This document shows, piece by piece, positions 7,871-51,550 of a stretch of 64,000 nucleotides of DNA. The stretch is from Peptococcaceae bacterium CEB3 (GTDB lineage Bacteria; Bacillota; Desulfitobacteriia; Desulfitobacteriales; Desulfitobacteriaceae), in the NCBI GenBank assembly GCA_001029295.1, contig LDXJ01000061.1, positions 248,001 through 312,000 of the forward strand. The letters are read 5' to 3'. Below the pieces are notes generated by a model that was not told the origin of the DNA, made no database searches, and saw nothing but the letters and a program-made list of their open reading frames with translations. Positions within the stretch are counted from its first letter, which is position 1; each line of letters opens with the position of its first letter. The position numbers and the translations under genes are program-made.

Positions 7871-9136
7871 GTGGTAAAAAGGATCGAACGTTTCTATGGT
7901 TTCACTGTTTTGGCAGGCTTTGTACTCAGTGTCTTTTGGATTTTCCTGGTCAAAACTCAGCCCTTTTCTGATTTCTTGTATTATCAGCGCATAGCCATGA
8001 ACGTGGCCAACGGGGGGCCATGGGGAAATACCTATACTACGGTGGGCTATTCCATGATTTTGGGGCTTTTCTACAAGATTTTTGGCTCTAACATCATGGT
8101 CGCTAAGTGGCTCAATGTTTTCCTGACGGTTGTAGGAGATTTATTGTTTTATCAAATTCTCAAGGCGGCTAATATCCGGGAATATGGACGTAGAATCATC
8201 TTTGTCTTGTTTGCCTTATTTCCGAGCACGATTTTTTACAATAGTATGGTTGCGACAGAAATTCCATTCACGACTATTCTCCTTCTGATTACGTATTTAT
8301 ATATAGCGGAATACCGCTATCGGTACTGGCTGATTGGCTTACTGGTCGGGCTTGACACACTGATTAAACCATTTTTCCTGGCATTTTTTCTGGTTATCTT
8401 TTTAACCGAGTATGTTACCGGCAAGAACAACTTCGCAAAAAGCCTGAAGAATAGCTTAATTATCTTAGCTGTGAGTATCCTGACAATCTCGCCTTGGTTA
8501 TACCGCAATTCCCGTTTAATGGGCCAATTTACTTATGTATCAAATAATGGTGGGATCGTCCTTTATATCAATAACAACTCACAGAATCACGCAGGCGGTT
8601 GGATGCCGGCCGAAAAGGTGAAGCACTCTCTGGTTCTGACCCAGAAATATAAAATGGCCAACATGACGCAGCGTAATCATATGCTTACCCAGGCAGCGGA
8701 AAAATGGATTCTTTCCCACCCCAGGCAATATGTGATTTTGGGCCTTAAGAGACTGCTGAAAACCTTCGGCCCCAAATCCGAACTGCGCATGAGCTTTTAC
8801 GGAGCTCAGGTGCCTAGAAACGTGCAAAAGTCATTAAGTTCCCTAACAGCCATCATGCGTGGCCTTTTCTTTAGTGTCGGGTTAATAGCAATGGCTTGGT
8901 TAGGCGTTTTATATATCTTTAGACTTTTGGCGCCTAAGAACCGCCTCAAAAACTCTAAAAGGAGTGGCAGTCTTTTAGCCGTGTATTTCACAATAACCTT
9001 TTTGATGTTCTCTAGTATCTATTTCTTAACGGAAGGCCAACCGAGGTATGCTTTTCCTGTTGTATTTATCCTACTCTATTTTGCTTATGTGGGATGGGAG
9101 AGCCTGTTTTCCCTGGTAAAAAAGTCAATTCTATAA
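7871..9136 (+). CDS. Membrane glycosyltransferase, GT39/PMT-like
   Basis: A 421-residue integral membrane protein with about ten spans. The organisation matches C-family glycosyltransferases that use polyprenyl-phosphate sugars: a first span, then an extracellular loop with a likely catalytic acidic region, followed by VGYSMILGLFYKIFG and a long run of helices. YNSMVATEIPFTTILLLITYLYIAEYRYRYW and GLLVGLDTLIKPFFLAFFLVIFLTEY are typical of the PMT_2/ArnT-like group. It probably transfers the lipid-linked sugar made and flipped by its neighbours to a surface acceptor. The gene begins at GTG 7871, 36 bases after the UbiA gene. Confidence 0.75.
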   Translation: MVKRIERFYGFTVLAGFVLSVFWIFLVKTQPFSDFLYYQRIAMNVANGGPWGNTYTTVGYSMILGLFYKIFGSNIMVAKWLNVFLTVVGDLLFYQILKAANIREYGRRIIFVLFALFPSTIFYNSMVATEIPFTTILLLITYLYIAEYRYRYWLIGLLVGLDTLIKPFFLAFFLVIFLTEYVTGKNNFAKSLKNSLIILAVSILTISPWLYRNSRLMGQFTYVSNNGGIVLYINNNSQNHAGGWMPAEKVKHSLVLTQKYKMANMTQRNHMLTQAAEKWILSHPRQYVILGLKRLLKTFGPKSELRMSFYGAQVPRNVQKSLSSLTAIMRGLFFSVGLIAMAWLGVLYIFRLLAPKNRLKNSKRSGSLLAVYFTITFLMFSSIYFLTEGQPRYAFPVVFILLYFAYVGWESLFSLVKKSIL

Positions 9137-48865: not shown

Positions 48866-49221
48866 CTTGCTTACACCCCCGAAGATGATATTCTATCCGT
48901 CAAAAAGAATGCCCTTTTTCCCCGCAAAAAATACCCGCGACAGTAGCCGCGGCTTGCGCAAAGATTCTCTAAATAAAAAAGGTTAAAACCCCTACAAATT
49001 CAGAGGAAGACCGAGTATAATAGAGTCTAGCCCATTGAAAATATAAGCAATTGAAAATGCGCGGAAGCAAAGGCCATGGAGGTCTGGACCCTTCTCTGCT
49101 GAGTGTGGACTCGGATCACTCGACAAGGAGATGGTTTACTCCTGGCCTTTTTTGTCCGCTGTTAGCCCTTGCTCTGCCGGAGCAAACGCAGGTCAGCCGA
49201 GTGTTCCTGCATTTAAGTCTC

Positions 49222-49241
49222 AGTGAACTCGTTCAACTAAA
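49222..49241 (+). repeat. Dispersed hairpin repeat, copy C; arm of a 20-bp inverted repeat
   Basis: AGTGAACTCGTTCAACTAAA. Its exact reverse complement is at 51528-51547, on the other side of the cooT-cbiQ-cbiO group. In this copy the second hairpin half has decayed (ATTAGGGG). It lies in the cooT leader, 77 bases before the start codon. Confidence 0.75.
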
Positions 49242-49253
49242 ATTAGGGGAACC

Positions 49254-49276
49254 ACTCCCACTTTAGAAGTGGGAGT
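49254..49276 (+). other. Perfect ten-base hairpin before cooT
   Basis: ACTCCCACTT and AAGTGGGAGT around a TAG loop. There is no T-run, so not a terminator. Similar hairpins occur at ends of IS200/IS605 elements, but no transposase or matching second end is present. Confidence 0.6.
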
Positions 49277-49317
49277 CTCGGATCAAACAGATTGGATCAA
49301 ACAGAGGAGGGGATACC

Positions 49318-49578
49318 ATGTGTGAAGCCAATGCTTATCTCCAAGACACCGAAGGCGAAGTACTGTTCATGGAAGCCGTCGACATCATCGAACCCTACGA
49401 GGACGGTCTCAAACTCGTGGATATTTTTGGCCGGCAAAAATTCATCAGAGCCCGAATCAAAGACATGACCCTCTTAAGCCACCGCATCGTCCTGGAAGCG
49501 GCAGAAGTCCGCCGGCCCGCCTCTCACGAAGTCGTCAGTCCCGCTCAAACGGACAGAGCGGACATCTTAACACCTTAA
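49318..49578 (+). CDS. cooT: CooT-family nickel-binding protein
   Basis: 86 residues: MCEANAYLQDTEGEVLFMEAVDIIEPYEDGLKLVDIFGRQKFIRARIKDMTLLSHRIVLE. This matches the CooT family, small dimeric proteins that bind nickel through the conserved Cys2 and were first linked to carbon monoxide dehydrogenase maturation. An added 25-residue tail (AAEVRRPASHEVVSPAQTDRADILTP) follows. ATG 49318 behind GAGGAGGGG. Directly upstream of an ECF transporter of the nickel/cobalt type, which supports a nickel role. A 15-base tandem duplication starts at its stop. Confidence 0.88.
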   Translation: MCEANAYLQDTEGEVLFMEAVDIIEPYEDGLKLVDIFGRQKFIRARIKDMTLLSHRIVLEAAEVRRPASHEVVSPAQTDRADILTP

Positions 49579-49602
49579 CCCTTAACTCCTTAACCCTTAA
49601 CT
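49573..49602. repeat. Perfect 15-bp tandem duplication at the cooT stop codon
   Basis: CCTTAACCCTTAACT occurs twice without a gap (49573-49587 and 49588-49602). The first copy includes the last codon and TAA stop of cooT (CCT TAA). Confidence 0.9.
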
Positions 49603-49767
49603 CCCCAAAATGAGGCCGGATCCGGCCTCCGATGCCGGCCGGGCTCAGAGACGGGAGTCCACGTGGATCAGTTCGAGTTTTCCCCTGGGGGCATAACTCT
49701 CCTACCATAGAGGTTGGAGCCTTCTACGGCGGAGTGTCGGTAAAAACGAAACAGTGGAGGAACGGTT
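49603..49767 (+). promoter_or_regulatory. Structured leader of cbiQ with the motif shared with cooT
   Basis: An 18-base perfect palindrome GAGGCCGGATCCGGCCTC (49612-49629), a hairpin GAGTT-CCCC / GGGG-AACTC (about 49675-49698), then CCATAGAGGTTGGAGCCTTC continuing TACGGCGGAGTGTCGG (49705-49740). This last block aligns with 49074-49110 in the cooT leader (CCATGGAGGTCTGGACCCTTCTC-TGCTGAGTGTGG), about three quarters identical. The ribosome site AGTGGAGG follows at once, so the motif may control translation. Confidence 0.5.
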
Positions 49768-50709
49768 ATGAAGCTTCCTGATTGGCTGGAAGAAAACAGC
49801 CCCGCTCTCTGCCCCTGCGGCTGCCTGGGCGGACGGAAGAAGCAGGGGTTTGTGCAAAAGACGCTGGAAGACATTGTTCGTTTCCTGCACGATTCTGTTT
49901 TTTCGGAAGAAGTCGCTTTGCAAACCGGATTTCTGCAATCTCTCGATCCCAGGGTAAAAGTGGCGGCTCTCCTTCTTTTGTTAATCTCCCTTAACTTACT
50001 GAGTCATCTTACCCTTCTCTGGGGATTCTACCTGGTTCTCCTCTTGGCGGCCCACTTGTCCGGCCTCTCGGTTCGCTCTCTCCTGAAAAGGGTTTGGCTG
50101 GTCGTCCCGCTGTTCACCGGAATTATGGCCCTGCCCGCGCTTTTTAACTGGGTGCGGCCCGGAGACCCCCTTCTTACCCTATTTCACCTGGGGGCTCCAC
50201 TCTATATCGGCCCTTGGCGCCTTCCGGCTACCCTGACCATTACCGAACAAGGTTTGCGCGGGGACGCTCTGCTAGTGAGCCGGGTGGGAATCTCCGTCAC
50301 TCTGGCCATGATCATCACGCTCACCACCCGTTGGCATGACCTTCTCCGCGCTCTGCGCAGCTTTTTCCTGCCAAAAATATTCGTCGCCACTTTGGAAATG
50401 ACGTACCGTTACATTTTTGTTTTAGTTATGAGCCTGGAAGAAATGTTCATGGCCCGCAAGGCGCGTGATGCCGGTCTTTCCGATATCAAGGAACAACGTC
50501 GCTTTGTGGCCTCTTCTATCGGCGGGCTCTTCGGCAAATCTCAATTGATGAGCGAAGAAATATATCAGGCCATGATCGCCCGGGGTTATAACGGTGAAGT
50601 CCGCCTCTCCCGGCACTTTAAGCTCACCTGGCTTGATTTGTTCACAACAGGAGTCATTCTTCTTTCCAGCTTGACTCTCTACGCCGCGGACAAAGTATTG
50701 GGAGGGTGA
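49768..50709 (+). CDS. ECF transporter transmembrane (T) subunit, CbiQ-like
   Basis: 313 residues. The EcfT/CbiQ membrane domain begins near residue 55 (LDPRVKVAALLLLLISLNLLSHLTLLW) with five or six spans. The two coupling helices have the family motifs (MTYRYIFVLVMSLEEMFMARKARDAG and EEIYQAMIARGYNGEV, the two Ala-Arg-Gly/Lys signatures). An unusual N-terminal stretch, CPCGCLGGRKKQGFVQKTLEDIVRFLHDSVFSEEVALQTG, has three Cys and could bind metal. It pairs with the ATPase gene, which it overlaps. No CbiM/NikM substrate subunit is in the window. Nickel or cobalt is inferred from cooT and family. Confidence 0.9.
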   Translation: MKLPDWLEENSPALCPCGCLGGRKKQGFVQKTLEDIVRFLHDSVFSEEVALQTGFLQSLDPRVKVAALLLLLISLNLLSHLTLLWGFYLVLLLAAHLSGLSVRSLLKRVWLVVPLFTGIMALPALFNWVRPGDPLLTLFHLGAPLYIGPWRLPATLTITEQGLRGDALLVSRVGISVTLAMIITLTTRWHDLLRALRSFFLPKIFVATLEMTYRYIFVLVMSLEEMFMARKARDAGLSDIKEQRRFVASSIGGLFGKSQLMSEEIYQAMIARGYNGEVRLSRHFKLTWLDLFTTGVILLSSLTLYAADKVLGG

Positions 50710-50711
50710 AT

Positions 50712-51503
50712 ATGACGAAGTCAACACCGCTTTTTACTTTAAAAAGCGTTTCCTATAATTACCTTCCGGACAAGCCCGTCTTAGCGCGGATTGACTTGGA
50801 CCTTTATCAGGGGGAGAGCTTAGCCATTTTAGGAGCCAACGGCAGCGGCAAATCCACTTTGCTCAAGTTGCTTTGCGGGTTGATTTTTCCCACCGAGGGA
50901 GAGATTACGGCTTTCGGCCAAACACTCAGCGAGAAAAGTCTGCAAAATCCGGCTTTTTTGCAAAGTTTCCGCCAACAGGTTGGCTTTGTCTTTCAGAACT
51001 CCGATGCGCAGCTGTTTTCAGCCACGGTTCGCGATGAACTTGCTTTCGCTCCGCTTCAGGCCGGACTCCCCGCCGAAACGGTACAGACAAGGGTCCGGGA
51101 CACAGCGGAACTCCTGGGAATTCAACATCTCTTGGACCGCCCCCCTTACCGTTTGAGCGGCGGCGAGAAAAAGAAAGTCGCTTTGGCCAGTGTCCTTGCC
51201 GTCAATCCCGAGGTTCTCTTCTTGGATGAACCCACCAATGGTCTGGATCCCCGCACCCAATTCTGGCTGGTGGAATTCCTCATCGCCTTAAAAGACGCCG
51301 GCAAAACCGTGATCATAGCTACTCATGACCTTTCTATCGTTGAAGACCTCGCGGAGAGAGTCATCGTCATCCGGGAGGATCATACCATGGCCGCCGACGG
51401 CCCTACCTTAAAAATCCTGTCCGACCGGAACCTGCTCTTAGATGTCAACTTGATCCACGAACGCTCTCATTTTCACGTCGGTGCTGCCAGACACCACGGC
51501 TAA
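50712..51503 (+). CDS. ECF transporter ATPase (A) subunit, CbiO-like
   Basis: 263 residues with Walker A GANGSGKST, Q-loop FQNSDAQLFSATV (FQNxDxQ is typical of ECF ATPases), signature LSGGEKKKVALASVLA, Walker B VLFLDEPTNGLDP and switch His IIATHDLSI. The C-terminus ends HERSHFHVGAARHHG, a His-rich tail like that of metal-transport CbiO proteins. ATG 50712 has GGAGG six bases upstream; the GTG at 50706 overlaps the cbiQ stop. It drives the adjacent T subunit. Confidence 0.92.
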   Translation: MTKSTPLFTLKSVSYNYLPDKPVLARIDLDLYQGESLAILGANGSGKSTLLKLLCGLIFPTEGEITAFGQTLSEKSLQNPAFLQSFRQQVGFVFQNSDAQLFSATVRDELAFAPLQAGLPAETVQTRVRDTAELLGIQHLLDRPPYRLSGGEKKKVALASVLAVNPEVLFLDEPTNGLDPRTQFWLVEFLIALKDAGKTVIIATHDLSIVEDLAERVIVIREDHTMAADGPTLKILSDRNLLLDVNLIHERSHFHVGAARHHG

Positions 51504-51521: not shown

Positions 51522-51550
51522 TTCAACTTTAGTTGAACGAGTTCACTTTC
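51522..51550 (-). repeat. Dispersed hairpin repeat, copy B; second arm of the 20-bp inverted repeat
   Basis: Minus strand: AAGTGAACTCGTTCAACTAA then AGTTGAAG. The part 51528-51547 is the exact inverse of 49222-49241. It also forms a local TTCAACT/AGTTGAA hairpin. It starts 18 bases after the cbiO stop. TTTCACGTCGG is also repeated nearby (51471-51481 and 51546-51556). Confidence 0.75.

Follow-up and report, generated by a model that had tools for sequence, protein, structure and literature searches.

A predicted transcription attenuator before cooT and an apparently undescribed element family at nickel and cobalt genes of Bacillota

The cooT-cbiQO locus and its leader motifs

The window analyzed here, a stretch of 64,000 nucleotides from Peptococcaceae bacterium CEB3, carries three neighboring genes on its forward strand. 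The first, cooT, belongs to the nickel-binding CODH accessory protein family (49318-49578; PF10133, E 7.6e-24) and is followed by cbiQ, encoding the T component of an ECF transporter (49768-50709; TIGR02454, E 1.5e-41), and by a cbiO-like ECF ATPase gene (50706-51503; PF00005, E 3e-34), whose top NCBIfam matches are ECF ATPases, under their cut-offs. The original prediction had placed two related motifs in front of cooT and cbiQ, and both stretches are present at the positions it gave. When aligned (CCATGGAGGTCTGGACCCTTCT-CTGCTGAGTGT against CCATAGAGGT-TGGAGCCTTCTACGGCGGAGTGT), they reach a local score of 38, while shuffled intergenic pairs gave a mean of 21.9 (sd 3.3) and attained 38 in only 3 of 1000 cases. 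Among 1338 segments of the window, both strands included, the cbiQ motif is the best match to the cooT motif, with the runner-up at 31. Thus the likeness exceeds chance.

The motif before cooT, hereafter copy 1, is part of a predicted leader attenuator at 49069-49153 on the forward strand. It matches our covariance model R1 with 39.1 bits (E 3.5e-7), as the sole such match in the window, and Acididesulfobacillus acetoxydans, a species of the same genus, has it at the same place before cooT with 92% identity. The minimum-energy fold of its surroundings has -44.7 kcal/mol, while shuffled sequences average -32.0 (z -3.3), and 49069-49154 reaches z -3.7, so that the strong terminator-like stem claimed for this copy was borne out. 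In this fold, the terminator 5' arm (49069-49081) pairs with 49139-49150, and the 3' arm together with its T run (CTCCTGGCCTTTTTT) extends over 49139-49153, as supported by sequence, fold and model alignment. The long inner stem in between (49085-49138) is specific for the genus and appears as a 49-nt insert in the R1 alignment, where the model has 14 nt; in other copies its place is taken by a short hairpin. Overlapping the 5' arm lies HP2 (49071-49085, forward strand), the proposed antiterminator hairpin AGGCC-AUGGA-GGUCU, which folds on its own with -5.8 kcal/mol and a 5-nt loop, and whose pair -2/+2 covaries among copies. A further upstream hairpin found elsewhere, HP1, is missing from this copy. 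We rejected a leader peptide (ATGGAGGTCTGG..., MEVWTLLC*), as its frame differs among the copies when compared by eye.

Between this leader and cooT lies a dispersed repeat (49222-49280) with the hairpin CACTCCCACTTTAGAAGTGGGAGT. The genome contains 42 partial matches to it, and its edge recurs in inverted orientation over 23 nt behind cbiO (51525-51547). This repeat is absent before cooT in the sister species and looks like an IS200/IS605-type end or a small mobile element. It is separate from the leader element, which is present only once as DNA in its own genome; a transposon end, which the original prediction had named as a refuting outcome, was thus ruled out. In addition, a short tandem repeat, CTTAACNCCTTAACC, spans the cooT end (49566-49600).

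The motif before cbiQ, copy 2 (49704-49737, forward strand), is a partial look-alike according to alignment and local fold, with the hairpin UCC.ACC-AUAGA-GGU.GGA. Folding revealed no terminator-like stem around it (z -0.7 compared to shuffles), the covariance models gave it zero score even with filters switched off, and the cooT-cbiQ spacer of the sister species lacks a counterpart. Copy 2 can hence not be upheld as a second working copy. Two other genomes do have a true copy of the element ahead of cbiQ (L157, L193). Probably copy 2 is a remnant of the element at most, and given its local look-alike hairpin, a decayed duplicate is a plausible origin. The predicted regulatory RNA tied to nickel and cobalt genes held for the cooT leader and failed for the copy before cbiQ.

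Distribution of the element and its downstream genes

An Rfam scan with gathering as well as loose thresholds, including the models of the NiCo (RF02683) and cobalamin (RF00174) riboswitches, found no match at the element, in line with the earlier failure to match it to a known riboswitch, and copy 2 likewise lacks a curated Rfam match. The family core is RRCC-AYGRA-GGYY plus terminator; Desulfosporosinus, Paradesulfitobacterium and others carry a shorter form, AAGRCCATGGAGGTC...CTYYATGGYCTTTTTT, before cooT. Within the family of the window, the element lies upstream and on the same strand at 21 of the 30 cooT loci examined, and 39 of 46 genomes possess it at E 1e-3. At this threshold, R1 detected it in none of the 37 other genomes of the class. 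A restriction to one family, as R1 first suggested, was contradicted by scans of the phylum: R1 found seven more genomes, and the broader model R2 was positive in 32 of 398, five of these in the window's family, leading to about 27 genomes with the element in other families of the Bacillota. Three matches outside the family (L241, L242, L243) look like plain terminators hit by chance. The genomes of relatives contain up to 19 copies, often clustered in islands. In the open-access literature we found no nickel/cobalt attenuator of such kind; an earlier description elsewhere is possible. We regard the element as a real RNA attenuator family with a nickel/cobalt regulon that is apparently undescribed.

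Besides these counts, the arrangement of some copies is unusual. Three of them (L122 1496-1555, L229 6782-6839 and L158 6836-6887) can be read on both strands, and a single hairpin may serve two directions there. Outside the family, two full copies stand in tandem before a CobN-like gene (L237 4966-5086).

In the genome of the window, R1 marks three distinct places: cooT-cbiQO itself, cbiM on contig 62 (L150) and, with E 0.006, a NiCoT-like permease gene on contig 58 (L151). As cbiQO of the window lacks an adjacent cbiM, a common leader would tie together the parts of a split transporter. The first gene after 113 copies encodes CooT (17), Peripla_BP_2 proteins of the BtuF/FecB binding protein type (15), FmdE (14), CbiM (13), a methyltransferase (13), a NikA-type SBP (7), DUF3842 (3), NicO (2), FecCD (2) or CbiQ (2), and RcnR/CsoR-type repressor genes follow directly in two cases; cobN is a target as well. 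The next ORF, by mechanical calls, is on the strand of the element in 124 of 142 cases. Outside the family, nikA-type operons (L238, L239 and, via fmdE, L240), CobN-like chelatases (L237, L252), cbiM (L258, L260, L269), fmdE (L257), DUF3842 (L249, L251), a methyltransferase gene (L262) and a ZnuA-type gene (L266) lie downstream, together with other genes, some of which have no evident metal link. The recurrence before metal genes of relatives that the original prediction had proposed as a check was therefore found inside and outside the family.

Terminator, proposed antiterminator and upstream hairpins

The distal structure has the make-up of an intrinsic terminator: a G+C stem and then a T run, placed ahead of the gene and in its orientation. 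Base pairing between 5' core and 3' arm holds in 124 of 125 copies, and the terminator, with 96.3% of cells paired, shows 14 double changes compared to 4.8 in shuffled alignments, though kinship inflates this and all other shuffle tests, and tallies that include relatives make the sequences seem more independent than they are. More weight lies with the agreement between distant families. In sequences from outside the family, columns 9/94 read TA 14, CG 7 and TG 2, and columns 11/92 read AT 19, GC 3 and GT 1, both unmatched in 1000 shuffles. Each of the loop variants AUGGA, AUGAA, ACGAA and ACGGA has its matching 3' arm. Nevertheless, the two strands evolve differently: the 5' arm is nearly invariant and the 3' strand drifts. 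Such a near-fixed 5' arm is more than a terminator alone requires.

HP2, which uses the terminator 5' arm, is a mutually exclusive fold that would serve as the antiterminator. Its pair -2/+2 is GC in 71, AT in 28 and GT in 25 copies and broken in 1 of 125 (0 of 2000 shuffles), and among 23 sequences outside the family it is GC in 15, AT in seven and AA in one (0 of 1000 shuffles); the covariation of HP2 rests mainly on this pair, as the innermost pairs are invariant. Since the outer bases of the HP2 3' half lie beyond the outer terminator helix, the terminator cannot explain this covariation. Compensatory base changes, the second check proposed originally, thus occur in both structures. On its own, HP2 has about -4 to -6 kcal/mol, whereas the terminator has about -25. 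HP2 being so much weaker, a stabilizer must exist.

HP1 is found in roughly half of the copies, 62 of 125 showing the string A[TCA]GAA at its place. The most frequent spot for the loop ATGAA is position -19, with 31 of 125 copies. In copies not chosen for pairing, covariation was seen at each of the three pairs next to the HP1 loop (0, 0 and 7 of 2000 shuffles), and perfect stems occur outside the family in L260 (GGCAUC-AUGAA-GAUGCC) and L240 (ACAUACC-AGGAA-GGUAUGU).

Proposed mechanism and alternative explanations

Judged from sequence comparison, the element probably attenuates the transcription of a nickel/cobalt regulon, with two exclusive folds and a factor that holds the loops. RNA polymerase would make a short leader in which, by default, the 5' strand RRCCAYGRAGG and the distal strand CYYCRUGGYY form an intrinsic terminator, so that transcription stops short of the gene. 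In the other fold, this 5' strand would pair with itself to give the hairpin RRCC-AYGRA-GGYY with its conserved 5-nt loop; many copies have, about 20 nt further upstream, another hairpin whose loop is of the ANGAA type. The factor that holds the loops would most likely be an antiterminator that binds RNA. It would act under shortage of nickel (or cobalt) and would block the terminator, so that uptake and insertion genes are expressed. We infer antitermination, the sign of the metal response, nickel over cobalt, and a protein as the agent; activity under metal shortage follows from the targets being mostly uptake and insertion genes. Hairpins that overlap a terminator and are stabilized by a protein are known from the RAT antiterminators of BglG/LicT, and a protein stabilizer is what we propose for the element. 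However, RAT consists of one hairpin, roughly 30 nt long and interrupted by internal loops, and serves a sugar-uptake regulon, in contrast to the nickel/cobalt regulon found here.

Nickel is favored over cobalt because CooT and NikA belong to the regulon and because cobalt/corrinoid operons of related Dehalobacter are under cobalamin riboswitches (PMC4285132). The cobalamin riboswitch (RF00174) resembles the element in this control of corrinoid and cobalt genes, but it is much larger and separate, and on L034 and L041 it is located away from the motif. NikR was found in none of the 46 genomes of the window's family, while 5 of 14 control genomes were positive, and its lack calls for another nickel regulator. 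Zhang et al. (2009) reported NikR in fewer than half of the organisms containing NikABCDE (PMC2667541). One might speculate that FmdE, a frequent target with a zinc-finger tail, binds the leaders: its structure report describes the C-terminal zinc finger as suggestive of transcriptional regulation (PMC2954224). We put forward tentatively, at somewhat short of even chances, that a previously undescribed nickel/cobalt regulon extends throughout the Bacillota, in which tandem AYGRA-loop hairpins and an RNA-binding antiterminator that senses metal replace NikR; this protein might be FmdE, which would then act on the leader of its own gene and on those of others. The element thereby bears on the control of nickel uptake in anaerobic Bacillota without NikR. 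It names a regulon that includes the poorly characterized CooT, FmdE, DUF3842, CobN-like and CpaM-like methyltransferase proteins and offers a 50-nt RNA as bait for the metal-sensing factor.

A true riboswitch, in which the leader RNA itself binds Ni2+, Co2+ or some metal complex and is thereby shifted between the folds without a protein, is unlikely. The conserved loop nucleotides, the short 5' leader and the metal regulon would suit it, and metal riboswitches are already known, such as NiCo (czcD, RF02683), which controls metal efflux genes and is likewise a leader RNA linked to nickel and cobalt genes. Yet the NiCo covariance model finds no match at the element, which consists only of simple hairpins with no compact junction or aptamer. 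Furthermore, the leader is off by default, so that a metal stabilizing HP2 would turn uptake genes on at excess metal, and hairpins with the same loop in tandem are typical of protein dimers. A protein-dependent antiterminator fits this anatomy better than a metal-sensing RNA.

The element might also be a divergent target of an ANTAR-domain antiterminator, which we consider improbable. Like the dual-hairpin RNAs of the eut, nas and ami leaders, the copies with HP1 comprise a pair of small hairpins whose loop bases are conserved, in an attenuated leader. The second hairpin overlaps the intrinsic terminator's 5' arm, an arrangement also known from E. faecalis eut, and ANTAR targets terminate by default and allow read-through once the loops are held (PMC3369931, PMC8934654). 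Moreover, within the window's family, 42 of 46 genomes have ANTAR genes. However, ANTAR targets are defined by hexanucleotide loops with A at position 1 and G at position 4 (PMC3369931), whereas AUGGA, AUGAA, ACGAA and ACGGA have 5 nt (A1, G3, A5); the HP1 stem is longer, and HP1 is missing in many copies, including that of the window. The regulon is one of nickel and cobalt, and the carriers do not share any one ANTAR gene: such a gene stands beside glnA in G012 and beside an OsmC-like gene in G000, G001 and G028, and genomes poor in the motif have ANTAR genes too. A shared ANTAR protein is therefore an unlikely factor.

Still less credit can be given to the core as a DNA operator for a metal-responsive repressor, with the terminator being incidental. 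The core is indeed an imperfect palindrome (AGACC-N5-GGTCT), and RcnR/CsoR-type repressor genes follow two copies. Against this, the AYGRA center is asymmetric, conserved and oriented toward the gene, core and distal arm covary, and the HP1 loop is kept while its stem varies. It is very improbable that what precedes these genes is just the upstream gene's own terminator, or a dispersed repeat, placed there by chance: stem and T run are present, and the model does match plain terminators outside the family, but the genes that follow form a clearly non-random set, drift is confined to the 3' strand while the 5' strand is fixed, and unrelated loci share an unchanged core. Binding of CsrA to the loop, where CAUGGAGG in the family HP2 agrees with the CsrA consensus CANGGANG, has next to no likelihood, as loops outside the family are mostly AUGAA or ACGAA without GGA, and CsrA is absent from G000 and G001 (98% and 97% complete), which both carry the element, and is thus ruled out in the window's genus.

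Two further loci with copies of the attenuator element deserve mention. On contig 45 of G003 (L155), a CobN-like chelatase, ChlI/D-like subunits and a FecBCD-type transporter, named from their sequences, occur together with several copies and possibly represent a nickel or cobalt tetrapyrrole or metallophore system. The L240 contig holds, as a feature separate from the element before fmdE-nikA, a NiCo riboswitch (7873-7945) near a gene whose start resembles a cation-diffusion efflux protein; two different RNA elements may govern uptake and efflux there.
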